NCBI GenBank assembly: GCA_016192425.1
Contig: JACPUE010000055.1
Span: forward strand, 1-56,361
Direction of reading: 5' to 3'
Origin: Burkholderiales bacterium
GTDB taxonomy: Bacteria; Pseudomonadota; Gammaproteobacteria; Burkholderiales; Burkholderiaceae_C
DNA: 56,361 bases
The position numbers were made by a program, and so were the translations under genes. The notes beneath the pieces were generated by a model. That model saw only the letters and a program-made list of their open reading frames with translations, did not search any database and was not told the origin of the DNA. Positions 7,007 to 53,405 of the stretch are shown in pieces (the stretch's first letter is position 1; each line of letters starts with the position of its first letter).

Positions 7007-7816
7007 TTAAAAATGGGGGACGGGCAGGCTGGCGGGCCGCACACAAGGCAGCGCAACCCATTGCTGGCCGACTGCCTGGATGGCGATGCGCCGGTCAAAA
7101 ACTTCTTCCACAGCACGGTGCGTGGCGCCATCGCTGCAGGCGCCCTGGTAGGTCACCGTGCCCTGGGCCATGACCACCACAGCGTCTGCATGCAGGGCCA
7201 TGCCCACCTCGTGCAGCACGCTGACCACGGTGCAGCCGTGCGCCACCAGGTCGCGCACCAGTTGCAGCCAGTCGGCCTGGTGCGGAGGGTCGAGGTTGGC
7301 CAGGGGTTCGTCCATGAGCAGCACCTGGGCCTGCACGGCCAGCAGGCGCGCCAGCAGCACGCGCTGGCGCTCGCCGCCCGAGAGCTGGCCCAGCGGCCGC
7401 GCACGCCAGACCCAGGCCTGGGTGCTGCGCAGGGCCTGTTCGACGGCGGCATGGTCGGCGGCGCTGGGCGGCTGCATCCAGCCCTGGTGCGGCAGGCGGC
7501 CCAGCATGGCGACGTCGTACACGGTCAGGTCATCGGCGGCGGCTTCGTTCTGGCCCAGCCAGGCCAGGTGCTGGGCACGCTCGCGCCGGGGCCAGGCGTG
7601 CAGGTCGCGCCCCTGCAGCAGCACCTGCCCGCTGCACACCGGCAGCAGGCCCGCCAGCACCCGCAGCAGCGTGGACTTGCCCGCGCCATTGGGGCCGACG
7701 ATGCTGGTCCAGCGCCCCGCCGCCAGCGCCAGCGTGACGCCGTGCAGTATGGGATGTTTTCCGATTCCAGCGCTTATCTGATGGGCGCTGATAGCTATCA
7801 ATTCAGTAGCAATCAC
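7007..7816 (-). CDS. btuD: ABC transporter ATP-binding protein, BtuD/FecE type (vitamin B12 import)
   Basis: A 269-residue ATPase with Walker A 'GPNGAGKST', signature 'LSGGERQR', Walker B 'VLLMDEPLANLD' and a switch His in 'VLHEVG'. It energises the BtuCDF importer encoded with it. The GTG at 7816 was chosen because it overlaps the btuC stop as GTGA and no ATG lies before the first beta strand. The first ~20 codons coincide with an R1 repeat (7752-7813), and the strand leading to Walker A ('ISAHQISAGIGKHPILHGV') is written partly by the repeat. The ligand is inferred as cobalamin from the operon; a siderophore is possible from sequence alone. Confidence 0.9.
   Translation of the reverse strand: MIATELIAISAHQISAGIGKHPILHGVTLALAAGRWTSIVGPNGAGKSTLLRVLAGLLPVCSGQVLLQGRDLHAWPRRERAQHLAWLGQNEAAADDLTVYDVAMLGRLPHQGWMQPPSAADHAAVEQALRSTQAWVWRARPLGQLSGGERQRVLLARLLAVQAQVLLMDEPLANLDPPHQADWLQLVRDLVAHGCTVVSVLHEVGMALHADAVVVMAQGTVTYQGACSDGATHRAVEEVFDRRIAIQAVGQQWVALPCVRPASLPVPHF
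7752..7813 (-). repeat. R1 double-hairpin repeat, copy D (5' end of btuD)
   Basis: Read on the minus strand it begins TTGCTACTGAATTGATAGC, then TATCAGCGCCCATCAG and ATAAGCGCTGGAATCGG. It matches the R1 layout: TTGCTA/ATAGC arms, then AGCGC and GCGCTGG arms. It starts directly at the btuC stop codon and provides the N-terminal codons of btuD. Confidence 0.65.
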
Positions 7817-8922
7817 AGCAACCCCCTGGTGGCCGTACGCCGATGCATCAACCACAGCAGATACCCCCCGCCGAGCACGGCGGTGAGCACACCCACGGGC
7901 AGCTCCTGCGGCGCCAGCAGGCCGCGCGCCAGCAGGTCGGCGCCCGCCAGCAGCGCGCCACCCATCAGGCTGGCCAGCAGCATGAGGCGGCCATGCGTCA
8001 CGCTCACGGCGGCGCGCACCAGGTGCGGCGCGGCCAGGCCGACAAAGGCAATCAGCCCGGTCTGCGCCACCGCCGTGCCGGTGGCCAGCGCCAGCACGGC
8101 CACCAGCGCGGCGCGCAGCGGCGCCAGCGGCAAGCCCAGGCTTTGGGCCGTGGATTCGCCCAACGCCAGCGCATCAAGCGCACGAGACAGCCCCCAGGCC
8201 GCCGCCAGGCAGGGCAGCCACACCGCCAGCATGAGCAGGCAGGACGTCCAGCCCACAAAGCCGGTGGAGCCCAGCAAAAAGGCCTGCATGGCCTGCAGCG
8301 AGTCGGGCGACAGGAGCAGGATGAGCGAGGTGCACGCCCCCAGCACCACACCCACCACCACGCCCGCCAGCAGCAGGCGCAGCGTGTGCTGCACCCCGCG
8401 CGCCAGCACCAGCGTGAGCAGCACGGCCAGCACCGCACCCGCAAAGGCGGCGCCCGTGAGCCCCAGGCGCACCAGCCAGTGGCTGGAATACACCGACACC
8501 GCCATGGCCGCGCTGGCCCCGCCCACCATGCCTGCGCCGCCGCCCATCAGCGCCAGCACGGTGGCCACGCCCAGCGACGCGCCCGAGGCGCTGCCCAGCA
8601 GGTAGGGGTCGGCCAGCGGGTTGCGGAACAAGCCCTGCGCCACGGCGCCCGCCAGGCCCAGCAGCGCACCGGCGGCCCAGGCACCCAGGGTGCGCGGCAG
8701 GCGGATGTCCCAGACGATCTGCAAGGCCATGGCGCGCTCGGCGGCGTCGCCCTGCCCGCCCCGCAGCAGGGGCCAGAGGTTCTCCAGCCCGGTGCTGCCC
8801 ACGCCCGTGCCCAGCAGCACCAGCAGCGCGCCCAGCAGTGCCAGCAACACGGCCAGCCCGTGCGCCCAGCCGGGGCCGCGTGCGGGGGATGCGGGGGTGC
8901 CCAGGGCCATGGCGGTGCTCAC
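7813..8922 (-). CDS. btuC: Vitamin B12 ABC transporter permease BtuC (FecCD family)
   Basis: A 369-residue FecCD-family permease with about ten hydrophobic segments. Family motifs are 'RLPRTLGAWAAGALLGLAGA', 'FRNPLADPYLLGSASGASLG' and, near the C-terminus, 'IAFVGLAAPHLVR' and 'LPVGVLTAVLGGGYLLWLM'. It forms the inner-membrane channel of the BtuCDF importer. A GTG at 8922 overlaps the btuF stop as GTGA and gives the normal family length; an ATG five codons later is an alternative. The stop overlaps the btuD GTG. The longer open frame to 9801 is shadow coding inside btuF. Confidence 0.92.
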   Translation of the reverse strand: MSTAMALGTPASPARGPGWAHGLAVLLALLGALLVLLGTGVGSTGLENLWPLLRGGQGDAAERAMALQIVWDIRLPRTLGAWAAGALLGLAGAVAQGLFRNPLADPYLLGSASGASLGVATVLALMGGGAGMVGGASAAMAVSVYSSHWLVRLGLTGAAFAGAVLAVLLTLVLARGVQHTLRLLLAGVVVGVVLGACTSLILLLSPDSLQAMQAFLLGSTGFVGWTSCLLMLAVWLPCLAAAWGLSRALDALALGESTAQSLGLPLAPLRAALVAVLALATGTAVAQTGLIAFVGLAAPHLVRAAVSVTHGRLMLLASLMGGALLAGADLLARGLLAPQELPVGVLTAVLGGGYLLWLMHRRTATRGLL

Positions 8923-9869
8923 CGCGCGCCTCCGCGCGCTGGCTGGCCCTGGGCCCTGGGCGAGCCCTTGGCCGCCGCCCCGCCCGCATGGCGCTCCAGG
9001 CAGGCGGCCATCAGGCGCGCGGCCTCGGCCATGCGCGGGCCGGGGCGGATCAGCACGTCGGACTCTTCGGGCGAGAACACGCACAGGCGCTGCCCGCGCA
9101 GCGCGCGCATCTGGCCCCAGCCGGGGCGCGCGGCCAGGCCTTCGGCGCTGCGCGCGCCGACCATGATGAGGTCGGGGTCGGCGCGCACCACGTATTCGGG
9201 GTTGAGCTTGGGGAACGGCCCCAGCGCATCCGGCAGGATGTTGCGCGCACCCAGGCGCGTGAGCGTTTCGCCAATGAAGGAGCCCGGCCCGGCGCCAAAC
9301 GGGCCGGGGTTGACCTCGAAGTACACGCGCGCGCCGCGCGCCTGCGGGCTGAGCGACTGCGCCGCCGCCTGCACGCCCGCATCGGTGGCGCGCCACACGC
9401 GCTGCGCATCGGGCACGCCCAGCAACTGGCCGACCTTGCCCAGCACGCGCTGCATGTCGGCGTAGGTTTTGGGCTCGAGTGCGACCACGGGAATGCCCAG
9501 GGCTTCGAGCCGCGCCGCCGCGCGCGAAGAGGTGGCCATGAGCACCACGTCGGGCCGCAGCGCGACGATGGCTTCGATGTTCGGATCCAGCCCGCCGCCC
9601 ACCTGGGGGAGCTTGCGCACGCTGTCGGGCCAGTTGGTGTAGCGGTCCACGCCCACCAGGCGCTGGCATTGATCCAGCGCGCACACGGTTTCTGCCAGCG
9701 AGGGCAGCAGGCTCACGATGCGCTGCGGCGTGCGCGCCAGCTGCACGGCATGGCCCCGGTCGTCGGTGAGCTGCACGCCCTGTGCGCGCGCCGTGCCCCA
9801 CATCAGCAGCAGCAGCGCCAGCAGCACGGCCACCACGATCACGATGCGTTTGACAGGGGTGGGTTTCAT
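8919..9869 (-). CDS. btuF: Periplasmic cobalamin-binding protein BtuF
   Basis: A 316-residue periplasmic binding protein. The N-terminus is basic, then a long hydrophobic core (about residues 8-27) and a likely signal cleavage near 'ARAQG'. The mature part starts with the usual 'RIVSLLPSLAETVCALD', followed by 'VGVDRYTNWPDSVRKLPQVG' and 'ALRPDVVL', a standard BtuF/FhuD-like layout. It passes B12 from BtuB/TonB to BtuCD. The ATG at 9869 overlaps the cobU stop by 4 bp. A Pro/Ala/Gly-rich tail of about 20 residues follows the folded domain. Confidence 0.9.
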   Translation of the reverse strand: MKPTPVKRIVIVVAVLLALLLLMWGTARAQGVQLTDDRGHAVQLARTPQRIVSLLPSLAETVCALDQCQRLVGVDRYTNWPDSVRKLPQVGGGLDPNIEAIVALRPDVVLMATSSRAAARLEALGIPVVALEPKTYADMQRVLGKVGQLLGVPDAQRVWRATDAGVQAAAQSLSPQARGARVYFEVNPGPFGAGPGSFIGETLTRLGARNILPDALGPFPKLNPEYVVRADPDLIMVGARSAEGLAARPGWGQMRALRGQRLCVFSPEESDVLIRPGPRMAEAARLMAACLERHAGGAAAKGSPRAQGQPARGGAR

Positions 9870-10465
9870 GCTGCGGATTCTTTCAGGGTCAGCGGCAGCC
9901 CTGCCGCCATGAAGGTGACGCGCTGGCACGCCCGTGCCACCTGCTGGTTGAGCTGGCCCAGCGCATCGACGAAGGCGCGCACCTCGCGCCCCATCGGGAT
10001 GACGCCCAGGCCGATCTCGTTGCCCACCAGCACCACGGGGCCGGGGGCTTGCTCGATTGCTATCAAAAACATAGCTGCTTGCGCTTGCCAGTTGTGCGCT
10101 AGAGCCTGTTTTTTTTCAAAATCCAGAGCCTCGGCACCTGCGGGCATGGCCCAGTTCGTGAGCCACAGCGTGAGGCAGTCCACCACCAGCAGGGTGTGCG
10201 GTGCGCTCTCGCGCTGCAGCGCGGCAGCCAGGTCGCGCGGCTCCTCCAGCGTGGCCAGGCCGGGCACGCGCTCGGCGCGGTCGCGCTGGTGGCGTGCGAT
10301 GCGTGCGCGCATTTCCTCGTCCCAGGGCTGGGCCGTGGCCACCAGCAGCGCGCGGTGCTGCGGCGCCTGCGCCAGCCAGTGGGCGGCGAGCAGCTCGGCG
10401 CGGCGCGACTTGCCGCTCTTTTGCCCGCCCAGGATGAGTTCGCTGCGCGCGATGTTGGCGTTCAT
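9866..10465 (-). CDS. cobU: Adenosylcobinamide kinase / adenosylcobinamide-phosphate guanylyltransferase (with R1-encoded insert)
   Basis: A 199-residue CobU/CobP protein. It has a P-loop 'GGQKSGKSRRAE' (residues 13-24), 'VATAQPWDEEM' with the 'RIARHQRDR' helix carrying the guanylylated His, then 'VVDCLTLWLTNWA' and 'VGNEIGLGVIPMGR'. It phosphorylates adenosylcobinamide and attaches GMP during lower-ligand assembly. The segment between the TLWLTN and GNEIG motifs (about residues 112-136) is encoded by an R1 repeat (10057-10123) kept in frame; it replaces a surface loop that varies in the family. The key motifs are intact, so activity is likely kept. It overlaps cobB upstream and btuF downstream by 4 bp. 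Confidence 0.93.
   Translation of the reverse strand: MNANIARSELILGGQKSGKSRRAELLAAHWLAQAPQHRALLVATAQPWDEEMRARIARHQRDRAERVPGLATLEEPRDLAAALQRESAPHTLLVVDCLTLWLTNWAMPAGAEALDFEKKQALAHNWQAQAAMFLIAIEQAPGPVVLVGNEIGLGVIPMGREVRAFVDALGQLNQQVARACQRVTFMAAGLPLTLKESAA
10057..10123 (+). repeat. R1 double-hairpin repeat, copy C (inside cobU)
   Basis: On the plus strand it begins TTGCTATCAAAAACATAGC, then TGCTTGCGCTTGCCAG and TTGTGCGCTAGAGCC, ending in a T-rich tail. It lies antisense to cobU and is read through in frame as an Ala/Gln/Lys-rich segment without a stop. Confidence 0.85.
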
Positions 10466-11796
10466 GCGCCCTCCCCGCCCAGCAGGTGCGCCACGGCCCG
10501 CGGGCTGGAGGCAAACCAGGCATGGAAGTAGCTGGCGTGCAGGCGGCCGCTGCGGTACAGCGCCTCGCCCGCGCCGGGCGCCGGGGCTTCGCCGGGGCGG
10601 CTGCTGCGCGCGATGGCCGGTGCGCTGCTGGCCAGCGTGGAGTAATGGAAGGTATGGCCGCGCAGCACCTGCCCCGCCACCGCAAGCTGTTGCGGCCCCA
10701 GCCCCGCCAGGCGTTTGTTGAGCGTGGCCTGGCCGGGCAGCAGGCCCCACAGGGGCTGCACCGTGCCGTTCTGCAGCTGCACCGATTCACACAGCGCCAC
10801 CATGCCGCCGCATTCGGCCCACAGGGGGCGGCCCGCCTCCAGGTGCTGCTGCAGGCCGGCGCGCAGGCCGGTGTTGGCGGCAATGCGCGCGGCGTGCAGC
10901 TCGGGGTAGCCGCCGGGCAGCCACACGGCGTCGCAGGGCGGGAGGCCATCGCCTGCCAGCGGCGAGAAGAAGCGCACCTGCGCGCCGAGCTGCTCCAGCG
11001 TCTGCAGGTTGGCAGCGTAGATGAAGCTGAAAGCCGCATCGCGCGCCACGGCCACGGTGCGCCCGGCCAGCAGAGGGGGTATGGGCTCCAGGTCTTGCGC
11101 TGCGGGGAATGGCACGGCCCAGCGTTGCAGGTCGTCAGCCCCCATCCGGCCCAGGGGCGTGGCGGCCAGCGCATCGGCGGCGGCGTCCAGGCGCTGCAGG
11201 GCGTCGGGCAGCTCGTGCGCGGCGACCAGGCCCAGGTGGCGCTCGGGCAGCAGCGCCGGGCCCTCGCCCAGCGTGATGCGTGCCAGCGCGCCCTGCCAGT
11301 CCTGCGGATCGCGCAGGCCGGCGCGCAGCATGTCGGCATGGCGCGCACTGCCCACGCGGTTGGCCAGCACGCCCGCCCAGGGCAGGCCGGGCCGGTAGTC
11401 GCGCAGCCCATGGGCCAGCGCACCAAAGGTGCCCGCCATGGCCGAGGCGTCGATCACCGCCAGCACCGGCACGCCAAAGCGCTGCGCCAGGTCGGCGGCA
11501 CTGGGGTCGCCGTCGAACAGGCCCATCACGCCTTCGATGAGGATCAGATCCGCCTGCAGCGCTGCGTCGTGCAGGCGCTGGACGCAGTCCTGCGCTCCGT
11601 TGATCCACAGGTCCAGCGAATGCACCGGTGCGCCGCTGGCGAGTTCATGCCAGTGCGGGTCCAGAAAGTCCGGCCCGCACTTGAACACGCGCACGCGCCG
11701 CCCCTGCCGCGCATGCAGGCGCGCCAGCGCGGCCGTGACCGTAGTCTTGCCCTGGCCCGAGGCCGGGGCGGCAATCAGCAATGCGGGGCAACTCAT
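10462..11796 (-). CDS. cobB: Cobyrinate a,c-diamide synthase
   Basis: A 444-residue CbiA/CobB amidotransferase that uses glutamine and ATP to amidate the a and c carboxylates of (cobalt-)cobyrinate. The N-terminal P-loop-like ATPase domain opens with 'APASGQGKTTVTAALARLHA' and has 'FKCGPDFLDPHWHELASG' and 'LIEGVMGLFDG'. The C-terminal glutaminase domain has the nucleophile Cys in 'LWAECGGMVAL', 'WLPGGYPELHA' and a catalytic-type His in 'HTFHYS'. CAGGAG lies 8 nt before the ATG at 11796. Given the early-cobalt neighbours, cbiA is the better pathway name; cobB is the common annotation. It overlaps cobU by 4 bp. Confidence 0.95.
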   Translation of the reverse strand: MSCPALLIAAPASGQGKTTVTAALARLHARQGRRVRVFKCGPDFLDPHWHELASGAPVHSLDLWINGAQDCVQRLHDAALQADLILIEGVMGLFDGDPSAADLAQRFGVPVLAVIDASAMAGTFGALAHGLRDYRPGLPWAGVLANRVGSARHADMLRAGLRDPQDWQGALARITLGEGPALLPERHLGLVAAHELPDALQRLDAAADALAATPLGRMGADDLQRWAVPFPAAQDLEPIPPLLAGRTVAVARDAAFSFIYAANLQTLEQLGAQVRFFSPLAGDGLPPCDAVWLPGGYPELHAARIAANTGLRAGLQQHLEAGRPLWAECGGMVALCESVQLQNGTVQPLWGLLPGQATLNKRLAGLGPQQLAVAGQVLRGHTFHYSTLASSAPAIARSSRPGEAPAPGAGEALYRSGRLHASYFHAWFASSPRAVAHLLGGEGA

Positions 11797-11842
11797 CGCA
11801 CACACTCCTGGAGCTGGATAACACCCACAACGCTGGAATCCA

Positions 11843-11954
11843 GCCCGCCCCAAGCGCGAGCCGCCGTGCAAGGGCCGCCCCGCCGCACTGGCGGCGTCCC
11901 CCTTCCCACGCGAAGCGTGAGAGAAGGGGGAAGGCGCGAAGCGCCACAGGGGGT
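11843..11954 (-). repeat. R2 dispersed repeat, copy a (with internal hairpin)
   Basis: Read on the minus strand it starts ACCCCCTGTGGCGCTTCGCG, continues CCTTCCCCCTTCTC, then an internal hairpin around ACGC-TTC-GCGT flanked by CCCCTTC/GAAGGGG arms, and ends GGCGGGGCGGCCCTTGCACGG. The beginning and end match the copy at 55931-56016. It fills the btuB-cobB gap (11797-11959) and may act as a transcription or RNA-stability element. Confidence 0.7.
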
Positions 11955-11959
11955 TGGTC

Positions 11960-13873: not shown

Positions 13874-13964
13874 GGAAATACAGCGAAATCGGAAAACTAC
13901 CTGCGCCGGCTTCCCCGCCGGCAAATAGGCGATACGGCCATGCAGCGCCTGGGGCGCGCACAAC

Positions 13965-14165
13965 CACCGTGTTGGCCGGTATCCGGGCTGGCGGCACGCT
14001 CTCCAACGCCTTCCCAGGCGCTTGTTCAAGGCGCCCAGTGGCTATGTGCTGGAGAGGGAATCGGGTGATTCGTCCGCTGACCGTTGCGGGGGCAGCGCAG
14101 GCTCGGTGCCGCCCCTGGTGGGCGGCAACCTCCCTGCTTCCCGTTGAACTGCGGCATGTGAACCA
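13965..14165 (-). promoter_or_regulatory. Cobalamin riboswitch upstream of btuB
   Basis: On the minus strand the leader contains the expected parts in order: an AACGGGAAGCAGG segment near 14140, GCCTGCGCTGCCCCCGCAAC, 'GGTCAGC', 'CACTGGGCG', 'TGGGAAGGCG', and the B12 box AGCCCGGATACCGGCC at 13974-13989. Below the box lies a CCGGCGGGG-AA-GCCGG-type hairpin that could mask the btuB start region. A TAAAAT -10-like hexamer (complement of 14188-14193) lies just upstream. The gap 13874-14231 is otherwise non-coding. Cobalamin binding should turn btuB, and perhaps the whole cluster, down. Confidence 0.92.
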
Positions 14166-14231
14166 CACCGCGAGCACCAACCTGCTGATTTTACGGCGCT
14201 TTGCCGGGCAACTGCCTACAATCCGGCGGGT

Positions 14232-14815: not shown

Positions 14816-14854
14816 ACGCCACTGCTCGCCACCCAAACCCTCTACAATGGGTGC

Positions 14855-28679: not shown

Positions 28680-28707
28680 AAAAAACCGGCAAATGCCGGT
28701 TTTTTTT
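28680..28707. terminator. Bidirectional terminator between hemP and the GlcG-family gene
   Basis: AAAAAACCGGC-AAAT-GCCGGTTTTTTTT: a symmetrical stem with A and T tracts that can end transcription from both converging genes. A second T-tract after AGCCAGGC (28651-28665) may add to hemP termination. Confidence 0.88.
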
Positions 28708-28713
28708 ATGGTT

Positions 28714-28776
28714 CAAATTCTGCTCTACCGCAATGAATATGAGCGTAAGCAGCTATTATTTTCATAGCATTCAAAG
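28714..28776 (-). repeat. R1 double-hairpin repeat, copy B
   Basis: On the minus strand it begins ATGCTATGAAAATAATAGC, then TGCTTACGCTCATATTC and ATTGCGGTAGAGC. It starts at the stop codon of the GlcG-family gene and runs to the terminator. The CATATTCATTGCG core is shared exactly with copy A at 53340. Confidence 0.85.
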
Positions 28777-30597: not shown

Positions 30598-32058
30598 TCA
30601 CCCGCGCTCGAACACAGCCATGCTTTCGACGTGTGCCGTGTGCGGGAACATGTTGACCACCCCCGCCGCCGTGCAGCGGTAGCCCGCCTGGTGCACCAGC
30701 AGGCCCGCATCGCGTGCCAGCGTGGCGGGGTTGCAGCTCACATAGACGATGCGCCGCGGCGGTGTCCAGTGCTGCGCCGCTGCCGGCAGCACCAGCGCGC
30801 CTTCGGCCCCGCGCCGCGCCTGTTCGATGTCGGCCAGCGCCTTGGCCAATGCAAAGGCCCCTTCGCGCGGCGGATCAACCAGCCATTTGTCGGCCTGGCC
30901 GTCGGCCACCAGCATCTCGGGCGTCATGTCAAACAGGTTGCGCGCTACAAATTTTGTAGCTGCCAGCGCTTTATGGGCGGGCGCCAGGGCCTTGTTTTTC
31001 TCATAATTTTCGCGCGAGCGGGCCACCAGCGTCTCGCTGCCTTCTATGCCCAGCACCTCGCACGCCTGCGTGGCCAGCGGCAGGGTGAAGTTGCCCAGGC
31101 CGCAGAACCAGTCGATGACGCGCTCGTGGGGCTGCACCTCCAAAAGGCGCAGCGCGCGCGAGACCAGCACGCGGTTGATGTGCGGGTTGACCTGCGTGAA
31201 ATCGGTGGGCCGAAAAGGCATGGTGATGCCAAAGTCGGGCAGGTCATACGCCAAGGGCTCGGAGGCTTCGTCGAGCAGGTGCACCGTGTCCGGCCCCTTG
31301 GGCTGCAGCCACCATTGCACGCCACGGGCCTGGGCAAAGATACGCAGCCGCTGCTTGTCGGCATCGGACAGAGGCTCCAGATGGCGCAGCACCAGGGCGG
31401 TGACGGTATCGCCACACGCCAGTTCGATCTGCGGGCAGGTGTCGCGTGCGTCCAGGCTGCCAATGAGTGCCCGCAGCGGCATGAGCAGGGCATCGACATG
31501 CGGCGGCAGGATCTTGCAGGTCTGCATGTCCGCGATGTAGCGGCTCTTGCGCTCGTGAAAACCCACCAGCACCATGCCCTTTTTCAGCACATGGCGCACC
31601 GACAGGCGCGCACGGTAGCGGTAGCCCCACGAAGGCCCTTCGATGGGGCGCAGCAGGGTCTCGGCCCGCACCTTGCCCAGGTGCCACAGGTTGTCCTCCA
31701 GCACACGCTGTTTGACGGCAACCTGCGCCGCCATGTCCAGGTGCTGCATCTTGCAGCCGCCACAGGCTCCGGCGTGCAGGCCGAAGTGCGGACAGGCAGG
31801 CCGCACACGCTGAGACGATTCGCGGTGGATGGCCGTCAGGCTGGCCTGTTCCCAGTTGTTCTTCTTGCGGTGGGTGTTGGCGCTGACCACCTCGGTGGGC
31901 AATGCGCCATCAATGAACACCACCTTGCCATCAGGCTTGCGGGCCACGCCCTGGGCATCCAGGTCCAGGGCCTGCACCAGCAAATGGCCGTCAGGGAGTT
32001 CGGGGGCCGCGCTCAGGCCCGAGGGGGTATCGGGGGATTGGTCTTTGGATTCGCTCAT
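30598..32058 (-). CDS. rlmD: 23S rRNA (uracil-1939-C5)-methyltransferase RlmD (with R1-encoded insert)
   Basis: A 486-residue RlmD/RumA protein. It has an N-terminal TRAM-like domain, an Fe-S cluster region with Cys in '[18 protein letters not shown]', a SAM-binding '[16 protein letters not shown]' and the nucleophile Cys in '[14 protein letters not shown]'; the conserved Glu is in '[11 protein letters not shown]'. It methylates U1939 in 23S rRNA using SAM. Between '[17 protein letters not shown]' and 'FVARNLFDM' the protein carries an extra Ala/Lys-rich segment encoded by an R1 repeat (30942-31010) read in the same frame as the one in cobU. The core motifs are intact. Confidence 0.94.
30942..31010 (+). 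repeat. R1 double-hairpin repeat, copy E (inside rlmD)
   Basis: On the plus strand it begins GCTACAAATTTTGTAGC (perfect arms GCTACAAA/TTTGTAGC), then TGCCAGCGCTTTATGGG and CGGGCGCCAGGGCCTTG. It is antisense to rlmD and read through without a stop as an Ala-Leu-Ala-rich segment. Confidence 0.85.
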
Positions 32059-37445: not shown

Positions 37446-37459
37446 CCGGAGACACCACC

Positions 37460-45261: not shown

Positions 45262-45282
45262 AGTCAGACTTCTTTGGCGTGC

Positions 45283-45345
45283 TCTTGGAAAGTGAGCTGC
45301 TGGCGCTTTGCTGAATACAGACAAGCGCAAGGCGCTCACTTTTTT
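45283..45345 (+). repeat. R1-like repeat, copy H (pheS-pheT gap)
   Basis: AGTGAGC and GCTCACT arms enclose AGCTGCTGGCGCTTTG and GACAAGCGCAAGG; the inner AGCTGC(T)GGCGC...GCGC core matches R1, while the outer arms differ. It fills most of the 87-nt gap between pheS and pheT. Confidence 0.6.
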
Positions 45346-45348
45346 GCA

Positions 45349-46401
45349 TTACTGGAACTGCGACAGGAAACGGATGTCGCCGTCGAAGAACAGGCGCAAA
45401 TCGTTCACGCCATAGCGCAGCATGGTGAAGCGGTCCAACCCCATGCCGAAGGCAAAGCCGATGTAGCGCTCGGGGTCCAGCCCCATGTTGCGCACCACGT
45501 TGGGGTGCACCTGGCCCGAGCCCGCCACCTCCAGCCAGCGGCCGGCCAGCGGCCCGTCCTGGAACTGGATGTCGATCTCGGCGCTGGGCTCGGTGAAGGG
45601 AAAGAAGCTGGGCCGGAAGCGCAGCACCAGGTCGTCGCTCTCAAAGAAGGTGCGGCAGAACGCCGTGAAAACCACCTTGAGATCCTTGAAGCTGACGTTC
45701 TCGCCGATCCACAGGCCTTCGCACTGGTGGAACATGGGCGAGTGCGTGGCGTCGCTGTCCACACGGTAGGTGCGGCCGGGCACGATCACGCGGATCTCGG
45801 GCATGGACTGGCCCGCGTCAAGCAAGGCACGGTGCTGCTTGACATGCTGCACCGCATGGCGCACCTGCACCGGGCTGGTGTGGGTGCGCAGCAGGTTGGG
45901 AGCGCCCGGCGTGCCGCCTTCGATGTAGAAGGTGTCGTGCATGGAGCGCGCGGGGTGGTCCTCGGGCGTGTTGAGGGCCGTGAAATTGAACCAGTCGGCC
46001 TCGATCTCGGGGCCCTCGGCCACGTCAAAACCCATGGAGCCGAAGATGCCCTGGATGCGTTCGAGCGTGAGCGACACCGGGTGCAGGCCGCCCTGGCCCT
46101 GCTTTCGGCCCGGCAGGGACACGTCCAGCGCCTCGGCCTTGAGCTGGGCCTGCAACTGGGCATCCTGCAGCGCCTGGCGGCGCTCGTTCAGGGCGGCTTC
46201 GATGGCTTGCTTGGCCAGGTTGATGGCAGCCCCGCGCGATTTCTTCTCTTCGACGGAAAGCTGGGCCATGCCCTTCATCAGTTCGGTCACGCGACCGGCC
46301 TTGCCCAGGAACTGGGCCTTGGCATTTTCCAGATCGGCGGGTGTGGCGCTGTGCGCAAACTGCTCGCGCGCGCTTTCGACCAGCAAGTCCAACTCGTTCA
46401 T
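45349..46401 (-). CDS. pheS: Phenylalanine-tRNA ligase alpha subunit
   Basis: A 350-residue PheS with an N-terminal coiled coil (about 1-90) and a class II catalytic core: motif 1 region '[20 protein letters not shown]' (written '[11 protein letters not shown]'), '[20 protein letters not shown]', motif 2 '[20 protein letters not shown]' and motif 3 '[19 protein letters not shown]'. It charges tRNA-Phe with PheT. A putative intrinsic terminator (46413-46455) with an overlapping R1 repeat lies directly upstream, after rplT, in the position of the E. coli pheS attenuator. Confidence 0.97.
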
Positions 46402-46412
46402 ATGCGTACTTC

Positions 46413-46455
46413 AAAAAAGAAACAAGGGCTAGTGCCTTTCAAAGCCCTAGCCCTT
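46413..46455 (-). terminator. Terminator/attenuator-like hairpin upstream of pheS
   Basis: On the minus strand AAGGGCTAG and CTAGCCCTT form a perfect 9-bp stem with a 14-nt loop, followed by GTTTCTTTTTT, 11 nt before the pheS ATG. It lies between co-directional rplT and pheS, so it must be partial or conditional. The stem is the distal part of R1 copy F. Confidence 0.7.
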
Positions 46456-46493
46456 GTAGTTTGTGCGCTGGCAGCTATCAAAATGATAGTTGC
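46423..46493 (-). repeat. R1 double-hairpin repeat, copy F (rplT-pheS gap)
   Basis: On the minus strand it begins AACTATCATTTTGATAGC, then TGCCAGCGCACAAACTAC and AAGGGCTAGGGC. The left arms ACTATCA/TGATAGC and the GCCAGCGC core match copies A and E. Confidence 0.8.
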
Positions 46494-46504
46494 CTGCCGG
46501 GAAC

Positions 46505-46864
46505 TCAGGCAGCCAGCTTGGCCTTGACCTGCTCCACGATGCTGCCAAAGGCAGCCTTGTCGTGCACTGCGAGGTCGGCCAGCATCTTGCGGTCGATCTC
46601 GATGGCAGCCTTCTTCAGGCCGTTGGCGAACTGGCTGTAGGTCAGGCCCAGTTCACGCACACCGGCGTTGATACGGGCAATCCAGAGGCGGCGGAACACG
46701 CGCTTCTTGGCACGGCGGTCACGGTAGGCATATTGCCCAGCCTTCATTACCGCCTGTTTGGCGACGCGGAAGACATTACCGCGGCGACCGCGAAAACCCT
46801 TGGCAAGGGCCAGAACCTTTTTGTGACGGGCATGGGCCGTAACACCACGTTTGACGCGAGGCAT
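46505..46864 (-). CDS. rplT: 50S ribosomal protein L20
   Basis: A 119-residue L20, beginning '[20 protein letters not shown]' with '[20 protein letters not shown]' next; complete and of normal length. L20 binds 23S rRNA early in assembly and, in E. coli, represses the rpmI-rplT part of its own operon. It follows rpmI by 26 nt. Its C-terminus ends 'EQVKAKLAA'. Confidence 0.98.
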
Positions 46865-46890
46865 GTGAGTACTCCTTGTTCGTCAGTTGA

Positions 46891-47094
46891 TTACAGGCCA
46901 GCAAAGGGCAGCATCTGTGCCATGTGACCCATGTTGGTCTCATGGACAGCAGTGATACCACGCAGTTGGCGCTTGTTCTTGGTGGTCTTCTTGGTCAGGA
47001 TGTGACGCTTGAAGGCTTGACCGCGCTTGACGGTACCACCCGGACGAACGCGGAAGCGCTTCTTGGCGCTGCTCTTGGTCTTCATTTTGGGCAT
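46891..47094 (-). CDS. rpmI: 50S ribosomal protein L35
   Basis: A 67-residue L35 with the usual '[20 protein letters not shown]' start and Lys/Arg-rich body ('[19 protein letters not shown]'). An AGAGGAGCA site precedes the ATG at 47094; upstream extensions are leader sequence. The infC-rpmI gap carries inverted repeats (47127-47148) that could form the regulatory RNA bound by L20 in related operons. Confidence 0.97.
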
Positions 47095-47126
47095 GTGAAT
47101 GCTCCTCTTTTTTGTGCTCGTGAGGC

Positions 47127-47148
47127 GTTTGCAAACCAGCTTGCAAAC
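47127..47148. promoter_or_regulatory. Hairpin in the infC-rpmI leader
   Basis: GTTTGCAA-ACCAGC-TTGCAAAC, a perfect 8-bp stem 32 nt upstream of rpmI. A second hairpin GGCGGG/CCCGCC lies near 47173-47192. Either could be part of an L20-responsive leader. No T-tract follows the first. Confidence 0.45.
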
Positions 47149-47274
47149 TTGTTGGCCCCGAGCCACTTTTCATGGCGGGCTTTCACCCGCCAGGGCCGCA
47201 GCGTCATACGCTGCGGATCTTGGCGACACCGGCTTTGCAGCCACCGACGCCAGATTCAATTCCCGGCAGGCTGC

Positions 47275-47874
47275 TCAGCCTGCCTGCTCCGCACTCCCTG
47301 CCGCCTCGGCCACGGGCTTGGCGCCTGCCTTCTTGCGCGCCGGGGCGATCATCATGATCATCTGGCGGCCTTCGAGCTTGGGAAACTGCTCCACCAGAAT
47401 GGTGTCCGCCAGGTCGTCGCGCAGACGGTTCAGCAAGGCCAGGCCCAGCTCCTGGTGCGTGATCTCGCGGCCACGGAAGCGCAGCGTGATCTTGCACTTG
47501 TCGCCCTCGGCGAGGAACCGGCGGATGTTACGCAACTTGATGTTGTAGTCGCCATCGTCGGTACCCGGACGGAACTTCACTTCCTTGATTTCAATGACCG
47601 TCTGCTTGGCCTTGGCTTCTGCCGCGCGCTTTTGCTCCTGGTACTTGAACTTGCCATAGTCCATGAGCCTGCACACCGGCGGATTGGCCGTGGCGGCGAT
47701 TTCGACCAGATCGACATCCAGGTCGCCCGCCATGCGCAAAGCCTCCATGAGGCTGACCACTCCGATGGGCTCGTTCTCCGGCCCGGACAGGCGCACTTCC
47801 GGCGCGGTGATCTCGCGGTTCAGGCGGTGCTTGCGCTCTTCACGCTGGCGGCGGTCACGAAATTCAGTAGCTAT
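47275..47874 (-). CDS. infC: Translation initiation factor IF-3
   Basis: About 199 residues. The N-domain has '[20 protein letters not shown]' and '[20 protein letters not shown]', followed by '[12 protein letters not shown]', the linker, and the C-domain '[19 protein letters not shown]'. IF-3 proofreads start codons. No ATG lies near the start: a GTG at 47883 directly abuts the AAGGG purine run, while an ATA at 47874 sits 8 nt after it. A rare AUA start, like AUU in E. coli infC, would allow autoregulation by IF-3, so it is used here. The C-terminus has an Ala-rich extension of about 20 residues. Confidence 0.93.
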
Positions 47875-47920
47875 GGCTTTCACCCTTGATCAAAAAAACG
47901 ACAAAACGCAGCGGCACAGG

Positions 47921-47949
47921 AAAACCCGCAAGCGCAGGGCTTACGGGTT
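47921..47949 (-). terminator. Weak hairpin between thrS and infC
   Basis: On the minus strand AACCCGTAAGC-CCTGC-GCTTGCGGGTT makes an 11-bp stem (one G-U pair) followed by TTCC. The T-tract is short, so partial termination or mRNA processing between thrS and infC is more likely than a full stop. Confidence 0.45.
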
Positions 47950-47958
47950 CAATTCCGG

Positions 47959-49878
47959 TCAGGCTTTGGATGCAACGGCCTGGACGACCAATTCGATGAA
48001 TGCATCGACAGGCATGACGCCCAAGTCCTTGTTGCCCCGAGCACGCACTGCGACGGCTCCAGACGCCCGTTCCTTGTCGCCAGCGACCACAATGAAGGGC
48101 AGTTTCTGCATGGAATGCTCCCGTATTTTATACGTAATCTTTTCGTTACGCAGATCGAGGGCCACACGCAGCGGGTGCTGGGGCACGGCTTTTTCGATTT
48201 TTTCGGCAATTTCGCGACAGTAGCCGGCCTGCGCATCGGTGATGTTGAGCACCGCCACCTGCACCGGCGCCAGCCAGGCCGGCAAGGCGCCCGCATGCTG
48301 CTCGATGAGGATGCCGATGAAGCGCTCCAGGCTGCCGACGATGGCGCGGTGCAGCATCACGGGACGATGGCGCGCACCATCCTCGCCCACGTATTCGGCG
48401 TCCAGGCGCTCGGGCATGGAGAAGTCCACCTGCATGGTGCCGCACTGCCACTGGCGGCCGATGGCGTCCTTGAGCGTGTACTCGATCTTGGGTCCGTAGA
48501 AGGCGCCGTCGCCCGGCGCAATCTCGAACTCGCAGCCGGAGGCGCGCAGGCTCTCCATCAGCGCATGCTCGGCCTTGTCCCAGCTTTCGTCAGAGCCAAT
48601 GCGCGCCTCGGGACGCGTGGCCACCTTGTAGATGATGTTCGTGAAGCCGAAGTCCTTGTAGACCTTCTGCAGCAGAGACGTATAGGCCATGCATTCGGGG
48701 AGGATGTGCTCCTCCGTGCAGAAGATGTGGCCATCGTCCTGCGTGAAGCCGCGCACGCGCATGATGCCGTGCAGGCCGCCCGTGGGCTCGTTGCGGTGGC
48801 ACTGGCCGAATTCGCCGTAGCGCAGCGGCAGGTCACGGTAGCTCTTGATGCCCTGCTTGAAGATCAGGATGTGGCCCGGGCAGTTCATGGGCTTGAGGGC
48901 GTAGTCGCGCTTCTCGCTCTCGGTCGTGAACATGTTGTCGCGGTACTTGTCCCAGTGCCCCGTCTTTTCCCACAGGCTCTTGTCCAGGATCTGCGGGCCC
49001 TTGACCTCCTGGTAGCCGTTGTCGCGGTACACGCGGCGCATGTACTGCTCCACTTCCTGCCACAGCGTCCAGCCCTTGGGGTGCCAGAACACGGTGCCGG
49101 GCGAGTGCTCGTCGATGTGGAACAGGTCGAGCTCGCGGCCGAGCTTGCGGTGGTCGCGCTTTTCGGCCTCTTCGAGCAGCGTGAGGTATTGCTGCAGCTC
49201 GTCCTTGCTGGCCCAGGCCGTGCCGTAGATGCGCTGCAGCATCTCGTTGCGGTGGTCGCCGCGCCAGTAGGCACCGGCCACTTTCATCAGCTTGAAATGC
49301 TTGAGCTTGCCGGTGCTGGGCACGTGCGGGCCGCGGCACAGGTCTTCGAAAGCGCCTTCGCGGTACAGGCTCACGTCCTCGTTGGCCGGGATGCTGGCGA
49401 TGATTTCCGCCTTGTAGTGCTCGCCAAGCCCCTTGAAGTACGCCACCGCCTCGTCGCGCGGCAGCACGCGGCGCACCACGGGCTCGTCCTTGGCCGCCAG
49501 TTCGCCCATGCGCTTTTCGATGGCCGCCAGGTCTTCGGGGGTGAAGGGGCGCTTGTACGAGAAGTCGTAGAAGAAGCCGTTTTCGATGACCGGGCCGATG
49601 GTGACCTGCGCATCGGGAAACAGTTCCTTGACCGCGTAGGCCAGCAAGTGCGCCGTGGAGTGGCGGATCACTTCCAGGCCATCAGCATCCTTGGCCGTGA
49701 CGATGGCCAGCGGGCTGTTCTCGGTGAGGGTGTAGCTCGTGTCCACCACCTTGCCGCCGACCTTGCCGGCCAGCGCCGCCTTGGCCAGGCCGGTGCCGAT
49801 CGATGCTGCCACCTCGGCCACGGTGACCGGGCCGGGAAACTCGCGCAGGGAACCATCGGGAAGCGTGATCTGGATCAT
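47959..49878 (-). CDS. thrS: Threonine-tRNA ligase
   Basis: A 639-residue ThrS. Domains: TGS (1-61), editing domain with '[17 protein letters not shown]' (HxxxH zinc-type site) and a downstream Cys/His pair, a class II core with the zinc Cys in '[15 protein letters not shown]' and '[20 protein letters not shown]', motif 3 '[19 protein letters not shown]', and the anticodon-binding domain ending '[12 protein letters not shown]'. All catalytic signatures are intact. It heads the operon with infC, rpmI, rplT, pheS, pheT and ihfA. A strong terminator-like hairpin sits upstream (49935-49963). Confidence 0.97.
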
Positions 49879-49934
49879 GGGTGTCTTTCGAATCGGTCGG
49901 CTCGGGAAATCACTGTGCTTCAGTGCCCCCCAAA

Positions 49935-49963
49935 AACAAAAAAGCGCGGACGGCGTCCGCGCT
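49935..49963 (-). terminator. Terminator-like hairpin in the thrS leader (possible attenuator)
   Basis: On the minus strand AGCGCGGAC-GCC-GTCCGCGCT is a perfect 9-bp GC-rich stem followed by TTTTTTGTTTTT. It lies 57 nt before the thrS ATG and after the separate terminator of the upstream gene, so it would interrupt thrS transcription unless relieved. Confidence 0.75.
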
Positions 49964-50009
49964 ATGCCAGGGTGGAGAAGGACTCACAAACAGGCGCGAA
50001 CAGCCCGCC

Positions 50010-50051
50010 TCAGCGGCTGGTGGCAGGGCTCCTGCAAGTTCGCGGTGTCAT
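50010..50051 (-). CDS. Possible 13-codon leader peptide rich in Thr, upstream of thrS
   Basis: An ATG at 50051 opens MTPRTCRSPATSR and a TGA: Thr at positions 2, 5 and 11. It ends about 47 nt before the terminator-like hairpin, the layout of a ribosome-mediated attenuator sensing charged tRNA-Thr. The ribosome-binding site (AGAAAGG, 11 nt upstream) is weak and three Thr in 13 codons is only suggestive. Confidence 0.3.
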   Translation of the reverse strand: MTPRTCRSPATSR

Positions 50052-50110
50052 AACCAGGGTGCCTTTCTCGCTCTTGTGGGGGCAAAGGAATGGAGGGCCG
50101 ATTTTAGCCC

Positions 50111-50148
50111 CAAAAAAAGAAAACCCGCCCAGCAAGGCCAGGCGGGGG
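50111..50148 (-). terminator. Intrinsic terminator after the TRAP solute-binding protein gene
   Basis: On the minus strand CCCGCCTGGCC-TTG-CTGGGCGGG followed by TTTTCTTTTTTT, about 35 nt after the stop codon. Confidence 0.85.
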
Positions 50149-50182
50149 CACGGCGCAGCACGGTGGCGTGCTGCACGATGGA

Positions 50183-51262
50183 TCAGAGTTTCTGCGATTG
50201 CATGAAGGAGTCGAACCGCGCTTCGGTGAAGCGGAACCAGAGGTTCTGATCGCGGCGGAAGTTGGCCATGTCGGTGTAGACCTTCTTCCAGTTGGGGTTC
50301 TTGCCGTTCAGTTCGTCGTAGATCGCCATGGATTCCTTGAACGCCAGATCCAGAACCGCCTTCGGGAACGGCAGCACCTTGGCTTTCTGGGCCACGAGCT
50401 GCTTGAGCGCATCGGGGTTCTTCACATCGTACTTGGCCTGCATCTCGGAGTGTGCCAGCGCGGCTGCGCACTCGATGATGACCTTGTTCTCTGCAGACAG
50501 GCCCTCGAAAGCGGCCTTGTTGATGTACAGATCCAGTTGCGGGCCACCTTCCCACCAGCCGGGGTAATAGTAAAACGGAGCCACCTTGTTGAAGCCCAGC
50601 TTCTGGTCATCGTAAGGGCCCACCCATTCAGCGGCGTCGATGGTGCCTTTTTCCAGGGCCGTGTAGATCTCGCCACCGGGGATGTTCTGCGGAATGCCGC
50701 CCATGCGCTCGAGCACCCGGCCGGCAAAACCGCCGATGCGCATCTTCAGGCCCTTGATGTCGGCCACGGTCTTGATTTCCTTGCGGTACCAGCCGCCCAT
50801 CTGGGCGCCGGTGTTGCCCATGGGGAAATTGACGATGTTGTACTTGGCGTAGAACTCGCGCATGAGCTTCATGCCATTGCCCTGGTACATCCAGGCGCTC
50901 ATCTGGCGGCTGTTCAGGCCGAAGGGAATGGCGCATCCCAGGGCAAAGGTTTCATCCTTGCCGAAGAAGTAGTAGGGAGCGGTGTGCGCCATTTCGACGG
51001 TACCGTTCTGAACCCCGTCCACCACACCGAACGGAGGCATCAGCTCGCCGCCCGCATGGACCGAGATTTCGAACTTGCCACCCGACATGGCCTTCACGGC
51101 CTTGGTGAAGGTGTCAGCTGCACCAAAAATGGTGTCAAGCGACTTGGGAAAGCTCGAAGCGAGGCGCCAGCGCACTGCAGCCTGCGCATGCACTGCAGGT
51201 GCCACACCTGCCGCCAGCACACCGGCAATGCCTGTCTGCTTGATGAGGGAACGACGATCCAT
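50183..51262 (-). CDS. TRAP transporter solute-binding protein (DctP family)
   Basis: A 359-residue periplasmic protein with a twin-arginine-like signal ('DRRSLIKQTGIAGVLAAG', cleavage near 'VHAQA'). Family stretches are 'WRLASSFPKSLDTIFGAAD', 'FGLNSRQMSAWMYQGNG', the ligand-site Arg in 'GLKMRIGGFAGRVLERMGG' and 'ALEKGTIDAAEWVGPYDDQK'. This subgroup usually binds organic acids (2-oxoacids, lactate or aromatic acids); the ligand is unknown. No DctQ/DctM membrane genes are adjacent: the neighbours are dxs and thrS. GGAGAA lies about 8 nt before the ATG. The gap to dxs (51263-51443) holds a terminator. Confidence 0.9.
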   Translation of the reverse strand: MDRRSLIKQTGIAGVLAAGVAPAVHAQAAVRWRLASSFPKSLDTIFGAADTFTKAVKAMSGGKFEISVHAGGELMPPFGVVDGVQNGTVEMAHTAPYYFFGKDETFALGCAIPFGLNSRQMSAWMYQGNGMKLMREFYAKYNIVNFPMGNTGAQMGGWYRKEIKTVADIKGLKMRIGGFAGRVLERMGGIPQNIPGGEIYTALEKGTIDAAEWVGPYDDQKLGFNKVAPFYYYPGWWEGGPQLDLYINKAAFEGLSAENKVIIECAAALAHSEMQAKYDVKNPDALKQLVAQKAKVLPFPKAVLDLAFKESMAIYDELNGKNPNWKKVYTDMANFRRDQNLWFRFTEARFDSFMQSQKL

Positions 51263-51387
51263 GAGGGAGTTCTCCAAAAGTTGTGGAAAGGCCCGCGCGC
51301 ACAAGCATGAGCCCGACCGCGCGAGGACTCTTAGAAGCCGAGGCCATTGTAGAAACCCCCCCAGGCAATCCCCTGAGGGTTTCCCCG

Positions 51388-51415
51388 CAAAAACGCCTGC
51401 ACAAGGGCAGGCGTT
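51388..51415 (-). terminator. Intrinsic terminator after dxs
   Basis: On the minus strand AACGCCTGC-CCTTGT-GCAGGCGTTTTT: a perfect 9-bp stem with a T-tract, 28 nt after the dxs stop. Confidence 0.88.
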
Positions 51416-51443
51416 CAGGCTTTTGCAAGCAAGTGAAAACGCG

Positions 51444-53339
51444 TCAGGCTGTTGACGTGCGCGGAAAGCGATGCGTAATGGAGCGCAAGATGCCTTCGGC
51501 GTCCAGCCCCTGCAGGGCCAGCAGGCGTGCGGGGTCGCCGTGCTCGATGAACACATCGGGCAGGCCCAGGCACAGCACCGGGCGCTGCACGCCATGCGTC
51601 TGCAGCGCCTCCAGCACGGCGCTGCCTGCGCCGCCCATCAGGGCGCCCTCCTCCACGGTGACCAGGGCATCGTGGCCTTGGGCCACTTCGAGCAGCAGCG
51701 CCTCGTCCAGCGGCTTGGCCCAGCGCATGTTCACCACGGTGGCGTCCAGGGCCTGTGCGGCCTCCAGCGCGGGGTACAGCAGCGTGCCGAAAGCCAGGAT
51801 GGCAATGCGCGGCGCCTTGCCGTCTGCGGCCGCCTGGCGGGTGCGGCCGATTTCGCCCTTGCCGTAGGGCAGTGCATCCAGCCCCGCCAGCGGTGCCGCG
51901 CCCACGCCCGCACCGCGCGGGTAGCGCACGGCCACGGGGTGGTTCTGGGCATAGGCGGTGCTGAGCAGTTGGCGGCATTCGCGCTCGTCGGCCGGGCAGG
52001 CCAGGGCCATGTTCGGAATGCAGCGGATGAAGGGGATGTCGTAGGCGCCGGCGTGCGTGGCGCCGTCGGCACCGACCAGGCCTGCGCGGTCCAGGGCAAA
52101 CACCACGGGCAGGTTCTGCAGCGCCACGTCGTGGATCATCTGGTCGTAGCCGCGTTGCAGAAAGGTGGAGTAGATGGCCACCACGGGCTTGGCGCCTTCG
52201 CAGGCCATGCCCGCGGCAAAGGTGACGGCGTGCTGCTCGGCAATGCCCACGTCGTAGTAGCGCTCGGGGAAGCGCTGGTGGAATTCGACCATGCCCGAGC
52301 CTTCGCGCATGGCGGGCGTGATGCCCACCAGGCGGCTGTCGTGCGCCGCCATGTCGCACAGCCACTGGCCAAACACCTGGGTGAAGGTCTGCTTGGGTGG
52401 CGTGGCGGGCTGCGTCAGGCCCACGCGGGGGTCGAACTTGCCGGGGCCGTGGTAGGCCACGGGGTCGGCCTCGGCCAGCTTGTAGCCCTGGCCCTTTTTG
52501 GTGACCACGTGCAGGAACTGCGGGCCCTGCAGGCTCTTGATGTTTTCCAGCGTGGGGATAAGCGAATCGAGGTCGTGCCCGTCGATGGGGCCGATGTAGT
52601 TGAAGCCGAACTTCTCGAACAGCGTGGCGGGCACGACCATGCCCTTGGCCTGCTGCTCCAGGCGCTTGGCCAGTTCGAACAGGGGCGGCGCGTTCTTGAG
52701 CACGGTCTTGCCCACGTTCTTGGCGGCGGCGTAGAACTGGCCGCTCATGAGCTGGGCCAGGTAGCGGTTGAGCGCGCCCACGGGCGGGCTGATGCTCATG
52801 TCGTTGTCGTTGAGGATGACGAGCAGGTTGCAGTCGGCCACGCCCGCGTTGTTCAGCGCCTCGAAGGCCATGCCTGCGGTCATGGCTCCGTCGCCGATGA
52901 CGGCCACCACCTGGCGCTGCTCGCCCTTGCGCTGGGCCGCCAGCGCCATGCCCAGCGCGGCCGAGATGCTGGTGCTGGAGTGGGCCGTGCCAAAGGTGTC
53001 GTACTCGCTCTCGGCGCGCTGCGGAAAGCCCGAGAGGCCGCCGAGCTGGCGCAGCGTGTGCATGCGCTCGCGCCGGCCAGTCAGGATCTTGTGCGGATAG
53101 GTCTGGTGGCCCACATCCCACACCAGGCGGTCGTAGGGCGTGTTGAACACATGGTGCAAGGCCACGGTCAGCTCCACCGTGCCCAGGTTGGAGCTGAGGT
53201 GTCCGCCGGTCTTGGAGACGCTGTCGAGCAGGAAGGCGCGCAGCTCCGTCGCCAGCGTCTTGAGCTCTGCCCGCGAGAGGCGGCGCAGGTCGGCCGGGTC
53301 ATTCACCAGCGAAAGCAGGGGATAGGTTGTCGTGGACAT
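51444..53339 (-). CDS. dxs: 1-deoxy-D-xylulose-5-phosphate synthase
   Basis: A 631-residue thiamine-diphosphate enzyme making DXP from pyruvate and glyceraldehyde-3-phosphate, the first step of the MEP isoprenoid pathway. It has '[20 protein letters not shown]' (catalytic His), the ThDP/Mg motif '[20 protein letters not shown]' with 'LNDNDMSIS', the transketolase-like '[19 protein letters not shown]' and the C-terminal domain '[20 protein letters not shown]'. It follows ispA on the same strand, but the 69-nt gap is almost wholly an R1 repeat, leaving no visible ribosome-binding site before the ATG at 53339. Confidence 0.97.
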
Positions 53340-53405
53340 TGCTATTATTTTGATAGCTGCTAGCGCACATATTCATTGCGCTGGCGGCATATTTCCTTTG
53401 AAATT
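53340..53405 (+). repeat. R1 double-hairpin repeat, copy A (ispA-dxs gap)
   Basis: On the plus strand it begins TTGCTATTATTTTGATAGC (the first T is position 53339 or 53340), then TGCTAGCGCACATATTC and ATTGCGCTGGCGGC, ending in a T-rich tail. It occupies nearly the whole gap and abuts the dxs start codon. Confidence 0.87.

Follow-up and report, generated by a model that had tools for sequence, protein, structure and literature searches.

What is the short, doubly palindromic repeat that recurs along contig JACPUE010000055.1 of a Burkholderiales bacterium (assembly GCA_016192425.1), a stretch of 56,361 nucleotides that we refer to as the window, and how does it come to lie both between genes and within them? 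We find that the repeat is an old element, of near-fixed length, with at least 214 copies in the genome of the window, an assembly of 3.67 Mb in 68 contigs, positioned largely at gene ends and in some cases in frame within coding sequence, and with matches almost wholly within one Comamonadaceae-type family. It is probably a repetitive extragenic palindromic (REP)-like family of the Comamonadaceae, akin to bacterial interspersed mosaic elements (BIMEs), with one origin near the base of a clade, mainly vertical descent, and persistence next to gene ends and in coding segments that tolerate it.

The dispersed repeat, proposed in the initial annotation to have about eight copies in the window, is real, with seven copies clear by alignment, matrix and covariance model. 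A gap-free alignment over the common 51 bases recovers 7 of the 8 places originally named. A 70-column matrix (≈74 bits of information), built from 88 copies elsewhere in the window's genome, scores six window copies at 36.9–85.4 bits, with 20 first-order Markov simulations of the window reaching at most −22.4, and an unfiltered covariance-model search of the window returns seven copies (E = 5e-27 to 2e-6). The eighth place, given as 45283 in the pheS-pheT spacer, is marginal (E = 0.002), and three relatives (L180, L181, L184) have there a hairpin with similar arms and a much longer loop; the weak copy placed at 56033 is indeed a copy, but lies at a different position (copy H, Table 1). By consensus, the unit spans 68–70 bases, from ≈4 bases before GCTAT to ≈64 after its start, and comprises a GCTAY-N7-RTAGC palindrome, then TGCYNGCGC-N11-GCGCYNGRG, then a C and an A/T-rich tail; its ends are not mutual inverted repeats. 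All seven clear window copies are 70 bases long, as are 10 of 11 uncut model-found copies away from the anchor copies (the other is 69), and the model does not itself force this length, because in G221, a genome of the same family, 22 of the 33 matches listed have other lengths.

A search of the window's genome with a pattern allowing up to 3 mismatches, which undercounts divergent variants, gives at least 214 copies, 105 and 109 by strand, compared to 0 matches for the reversed pattern. We then examined 90 copies taken from among the best 100 of the 214 matches (0–2 mismatches), two of them window copies; unless stated otherwise, results below refer to this sample. With a simple gene caller, 71 of the 90 are intergenic (50 in tandem, 16 in convergent and 3 in divergent spacers, 2 unassigned) and 19 are intragenic and in frame (frame −2 in 11, +0 in 7, +1 in 1). 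Among 46 cases in which a gene reads in from the left, 27 have the stop codon no more than 5 nt from the left edge of the element; among 36 in which a gene reads in from the right, 20 have it between −12 and +5 nt relative to the right edge. High-copy palindromes, mainly in tandem or convergent spacers and near 3′ ends, are what REP-like means in the broad sense, and the dispersed, REP-like part of the original proposal is supported.

Both loops are present in both orientations. Loop 2 (11 bases) yields 111 pairs of copies that match as reverse complements at 9 or more positions, compared to a mean of 8.1 and a maximum of 18 in column shuffles and 0 pairs in a plain-reversal control; loop 1 yields 387 reverse-complement pairs versus a shuffled mean of 135 and maximum of 167. 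All four combinations of loop orientation occur, in 38, 13, 18 and 15 copies, with 6 unclear. The earlier observation that stems are kept and loops differ stands as a description, with loop variation due in part to loop inversion; the selected RNA pairing drawn from it is not supported, since stem covariation does not clearly exceed that of shuffled copies. Among 50 copies, 92.3% of stem cells are paired versus 92.0% in shuffles (matched in 155 of 500), and the covariation score is equalled in 122 of 500; stem cells changed on both sides number 12 versus a shuffled mean of 7.4, equalled in 40 of 500. No Rfam family matches at the window copies, and the repeat has neither the curated match nor the clear stem covariation that would mark a structured RNA family. 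A transcribed RNA element, either a terminator or a 3′ end stabiliser that selection maintains for its fold, would account for palindromes at gene 3′ ends, for the paucity of divergent spacers (3 of 71) and for the weak hint in the both-side stem changes, but is very improbable in light of these shuffles, of copies that face either way with respect to tandem genes (30 and 20) and of copies within coding sequence on either strand. A constraint on DNA sequence or spacing is possible.

In the window, coding copies lie in CobU and RlmD; elsewhere, the proteins that hold them include MutS and a DppD-type transporter, several identified by Pfam domains (UvrA, DnaX, MetG, a penicillin-binding protein, a lipoyl-bearing dehydrogenase and an acyltransferase), and TruB and MiaA, named by eye. 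We compared lengths in 12 proteins, representing 10 of the 19 intragenic copies of the window's genome and 2 copies from other genomes, and find that the 23-codon segment differs from a homologue by −2 to +12 residues in all 12 (−3 for MiaA against G001), and never by the +23 that insertion of a whole unit would give; we therefore infer that codons native to the protein were replaced. The changes are +8 in RlmD, +12 in CobU (+14, the largest value, when some flanking residues are counted), −2 in MutS, −1 in DppD, 0 in a hydroxyisobutyryl-CoA hydrolase, +8 in an enoyl-CoA hydratase, +12 in an SDR protein, +7 in an acyl-CoA carboxylase, 0 in a Cca-type protein and +2 in FabD. The TruB segment is 4 residues longer than in G007, G011, G030 and G131 and equal in length to that in G001 and G005; that of MiaA is 1 to 5 residues longer than in G005, G007, G011, G030, G131 and G134. 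In the Cca-type protein (named by eye; its best Protein Data Bank (PDB) match is called a poly A polymerase), the element occupies an identical position in G003 and G095, which belong to different genera, and encodes the TINA of an RRDxTINA motif that is common, gap-free, to the PDB protein. The FabD copy lacks the tail, and native residues reappear inside the element.

These comparisons allow a whole-insertion model to be weighed, in which an element like a Rickettsia palindromic element (RPE) or a miniature inverted-repeat transposable element (MITE) inserts whole and in frame in genes and the native loop is trimmed afterwards. In-frame copies at the same orthologue site, as reported for RPEs (PMC3767692), and segment gains of 7–12 residues in five proteins are consistent with such a model, but the complete absence of a +23 change among 12 proteins, the unchanged length (0) of the segment in the Cca-type protein, the gain of +2 in FabD, the native residues inside the element and the lack of a convincing target duplication make it decidedly unlikely. 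Under the REP-like reading, copies would instead arise by templated, hairpin-prone DNA copying, through fork template switching or single-strand annealing, and such copying would overwrite a partly similar target and sometimes flip a loop. That the repeat spreads by templated, length-neutral overwriting, whereby single-stranded hairpin copies anneal at the replication fork to DNA that partly resembles them and replace it, in coding and intergenic regions alike, so as to rewrite protein segments and signal peptides without inserting, is a proposal we consider rather unlikely.

Presence of the element at three orthologous coding sites is all-or-none, and goes together with the genome-wide set. 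We defined carriers as genomes with 10 or more pattern matches and non-carriers as genomes with no pattern match, and scored a site as occupied if it exceeded 0 bits by the window-genome matrix. The element is present in carriers at 16 of 16 TruB, 16 of 17 MiaA and 18 of 18 SCO sites (50 of 51 in total), and in non-carriers at 0 of 9, 0 of 9 and 0 of 8 (0 of 26), where the best score is −30; the SCO counts leave out one site. The sole carrier exception is MiaA of G009, the deepest-branching carrier. In three congeners of the window's genome with no pattern match (G121, G123 and G126), the segment is as long as in carriers, or one residue longer (MiaA of G123). G020, which has no pattern match and 134 model matches, scores 5.1, −1.7 and −85.1 at the TruB, MiaA and SCO sites, respectively. 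At the rlmD site, 37 of 80 named relatives score above 0 bits and 32 above 20 bits, and the segment has the same length in 64 of the 80 and lies within −3 to +1 residues in the other 16; a recent insertion of copy D into rlmD is rejected, as the segment is found in all 80 orthologues at near-equal length. Among the named relatives fetched, a Giesbergeria assembly comes nearest, its RlmD being 96% identical.

The joint behavior of these sites is also what would be expected of an address in the DNA that recurs genome-wide: a motif, bound by a protein or resembling an uptake signal, that evolves where it stands through selection or biased uptake, in the manner of DNA uptake sequences, and decays once the reading system is lost. 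Such a motif would accommodate the length-neutral coding copies with native residues kept inside, the nearly equal use of the two strands, palindromic arms that are conserved without clear covariation, and a consensus that varies between genomes; uptake sequences likewise occur in reading frames, with dialects, and at gene ends in Pasteurellaceae (PMC3630211, PMC2346458). Several features argue against it: the ≈74 bits of information carried by the repeat, the near-absence of intermediate matrix scores between real copies and background in the window, when stepwise evolution should leave many, and the loop words common to both orientations, which point to copying and not to selection on the arms alone. 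To our knowledge, a repeat of ≈74 bits is far longer than any known uptake sequence, and we regard a DNA address as a credible but less than likely explanation.

Some coding copies likely form signal peptides. In genes encoding SCO1-type lipoproteins, the element makes up the putative signal-peptide region, as judged by eye, in 18 of 18 carriers scored, and the genes of G121 and G123 have a stretch of equal length without the element (20 of 30 N-termini were located). Further putative signal-peptide copies in the window's genome lie in a Peripla_BP_6 protein, an ABC auxiliary lipoprotein and a SIMPL protein. In three genomes (L070, L383, L417), the repeat on the other strand corresponds to the N-terminal, signal-peptide-like part of a cyclophilin-like protein, with both the family and the signal again assigned by eye. 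A review of REPs cautions that N-terminal REPs may be non-coding if the true start lies downstream (PMC3733652). In G019, a 2.7 Mb genome with 26 pattern matches, 20 of 20 copies examined (600 bases each side) lie in an open frame of 244–415 residues, and 18 of the 20 frames submitted have a Pfam match; L358 is represented there by its +0 frame, which is not the longest, and the match for L341 is in frame +2. A strict gene caller places 5 of these copies within genes, 5 at N-termini and 10 in intergenic or edge positions. The G019 consensus differs from that of the window's genome, with A at core column 22 in 65% versus 6% of copies.

The range of the repeat was surveyed in 120 genomes of the Comamonadaceae-type family, one per genus and including that of the window. 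Pattern matches occur in 32 of the 120, with 10 or more in 22 and a range of 0–451 per genome, versus at most 2 per genome for the reversed pattern; these counts are an undercount, because G020 has 134 model matches and no pattern match. In an order-wide search of 150 genomes with stricter filters, model matches occur in 11: the window's genome, two more of the family (at least 33 and 3 matches) and 8 of other families, with 1–2 each, mostly weak. One of the latter, G254, has two matches, one with E = 2.6e-12, in an assembly that is 78% complete, which would fit transfer or contamination.

Within the genus of the window's genome, pattern counts are 214, 208, 150, 114, 44, 37, 23, 17, 0, 0 and 0. 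The three zero-count congeners, G121, G123 and G126, still have 4, 7 and 4 model matches, with E up to 0.01 and the best, 7.5e-11, in G123, and are therefore better described as near-zero. A quick tree from TruB, MiaA and SCO with the element columns removed groups these three genomes with support of 1.0 and nests them in a carrier group with G120, G124, G127, G128 and G129 (0.985), with nodes that place the trio beside G128 and G120 at 0.76 and 0.77. The nested trio has thus lost the repeat almost completely; further losses are possible for G001 and G022, although their placement is weak (0.01 and 0.19), and G005, G007, G011 and G030 lie outside. By parsimony, a single origin near the base of a clade would suffice, with inheritance mainly vertical thereafter and copies persisting where genes end and where coding segments tolerate them, and a maker or keeper of copies would have been lost in the near-zero lineages. 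If such a trans-acting factor exists, its gene is expected to be present in carriers and lost in near-zero lineages, and the pairing of carriers with nested near-zero congeners makes the spread and upkeep of such repeats testable.

Several observations weigh against a REP-like family, the first being that no maker of the copies was found. There is no convincing target-site duplication among the 90 copies, as over 756 combinations of boundary and length the excess peaks at 6 copies versus 1.95 in the control, for 3 bases; there is no recent twin, the closest pair being 87% identical and the median nearest neighbor 75%; and copies do not cluster at Y1-type transposase genes, with an element (up to 5 mismatches) within ≈2 kb of a Y1_Tnp gene in 2 of 20 carrier loci. 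Most copies lack the GTAG or CGTC end tag that marks the REP super-families of those names: RTAG lies inside the first palindrome, as ATAG in 86% of the 90 copies, with G as its first base in 14%; in five other genomes, sampled at 20 copies apiece, the share with G is 15–40%. The 90-copy sample is not random, and a stricter second gene caller finds 5 of these copies intragenic and 12 N-terminal; this caller is less trusted and left out of the main counts because it was trained on few genes, making the intragenic fraction uncertain. Finally, upkeep of the element at the nucleotide level is only weakly supported. Codon identity at equal residues is 0.636 in the element versus 0.596 in the rest of the gene for carriers, and 0.510 versus 0.566 for non-carriers, and ATA makes up 58 of 116 Ile codons in the element versus 12 of 528 elsewhere. 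These contrasts are suggestive only, and element windows rank 40 of 291, 141 of 315 and 68 of 180 within their genes. A first codon test against the window's genes (carriers 0.74/0.64, others 0.29/0.57) had pointed to strong upkeep and was dropped; it is unreliable because G020, with its 134 model matches, was counted as a non-carrier, and the symmetric version is weak.

The same data speak to the earlier suggestion of a non-autonomous mobile element, possibly linked to a REP-associated tyrosine transposase (RAYT). Neither the terminal inverted repeats nor any convincing sign of the target-site duplications of a MITE are found, and mobilisation by a Y1-type transposase or RAYT finds no support, as repeats flanking such a gene are not the rule at the 20 carrier loci. 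The window's genome has a sub-threshold Y1_Tnp match only (E = 0.005), and congeners without pattern matches retain Y1_Tnp genes. Y1-type genes occur in 87 of the 120 family genomes, with or without the repeat, and in 20 of the 22 genomes with 10 or more pattern matches versus 67 of the 98 others, a weak association on which we do not rely. A conserved Y1-type transposase-like gene (L209–L228), often starting MARLPRLTLPG or similar, is present in many family genomes irrespective of the repeat.

The window copies are collected in Table 1. Copy A lies at the junction of two genes resembling those of a cobalamin- or iron-uptake ABC transporter (named by eye), and copies B and D lie in frame within cobU and rlmD, respectively, the former assigned in part by alignment to adenosylcobinamide kinase structures. 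Copy C adjoins a terminator-like hairpin, as judged by eye. Copy E, in the rplT-pheS spacer, partly overlaps a terminator-like hairpin (46423–46457) that is present in 7 of 7 congener loci read, including those of G121 and G123, which have no pattern matches. Copy F, between ispA and dxs (named by eye), is found in 5 congeners and not in G121 and G123. Copy H adjoins the repeated end of the contig: positions 56122–56361 recur at several other contig ends of the same genome (94–100% identity) and at ≈80% in congeners, which is what an insertion-sequence end that interrupted the assembly would give. At 55963–56003 lies a separate G+C-rich repeat of ≈41 bases that is found again elsewhere in this genome and in congeners G122 and G125, and a cobalamin riboswitch (74 bits) lies at 13957–14196 on the minus strand.

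Table 1. Copies of the repeat in the window and the two genes that hold coding copies
Feature	Position	Strand	Covariance model	Matrix	Further basis
Copy A	7745..7814	-	37.3 bits	47.2 bits	
Copy B	10055..10124	+	73.2 bits	85.4 bits	
Open frame with cobU (adenosylcobinamide kinase), holds copy B	9866..10750	-			
Copy C	28703..28772	-	49.1 bits	60.4 bits	
Copy D	30940..31009	+	62.1 bits	66.6 bits	orthologues
rlmD/rumA-type 23S rRNA methyltransferase gene, holds copy D	30598..32058	-			
Copy G (marginal)	45277..45353	+	15.5 bits, E 0.002	no match	
Copy E	46425..46494	-	25.5 bits	36.9 bits	relatives
Copy F	53337..53406	+	59.6 bits	73.0 bits	
Copy H (weak)	56069..56138	+	22.7 bits	9.1 bits	

Judging by titles and the openings of abstracts, we recognised no paper on this repeat among those listed by searches of an open-access collection, a scope that mostly excludes subscription papers. 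A stem-loop survey represents the betaproteobacteria by Bordetella and Neisseria in its accessible portion (PMC2267715), and a Rhodoferax paper considered as a prior account mentions, in the portion available, only CRISPR (PMC2755013). Among known systems, the DNA uptake sequences of Neisseriaceae and Pasteurellaceae are, like the present repeat, genome-wide, found in genes and at gene ends, and variable between lineages, but the repeat is much longer, has two palindromes and has fewer copies. It shares with bacterial MITEs such as ERIC, RUP and NEMIS a small size, dispersal and the lack of a gene of its own, and differs from them in having no pair of terminal inverted repeats bounding the consensus unit and no convincing target duplication. 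RPEs, which are 100–150 bp and described as insertions (PMC3767692, PMC10969869), and the Wolbachia palindromic elements resemble it in occupying, in frame, positions within genes that orthologues have in common; the coding copies here do not lengthen the protein by the size of the element (an added peptide of that length is found in 0 of 12 proteins), and intergenic copies form the majority in the window's genome.

The repeat also resembles REPs and BIMEs, which are palindromic, of high copy number, located in tandem and convergent spacers at stop codons, and in some cases in frame in genes for DNA repair and tRNA modification. In the GTAG and CGTC families, REPs are arranged around gene ends in the same way and are likewise known from within uvrA, DNA ligase and truB, among other genes for repair and tRNA; published single units are 20–40 bp long, with an unpaired GTAG or CGTC tag, and dimers or groups within genes encode 20–30 residues (PMC3733652), compared to 23 for the coding segment here. 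The present unit differs in its length of 68–70 bp, its two palindromes, the RTAG inside a palindrome and the absence of any sign of a flanking tyrosine transposase. In-gene REP-type repeats have so far been described as insertions, and orthologues here appear to show native codons replaced, with coding copies that overlap a conserved motif in the Cca-type enzyme and seem, by eye, to make up whole secretory-type signal peptides. New beyond the published REPs that we encountered are thus this apparent codon replacement, coding sites that are occupied all-or-none, loops that run both ways, likely signal peptides, and a genome in which all copies examined (20 of 20) lie in open frames.

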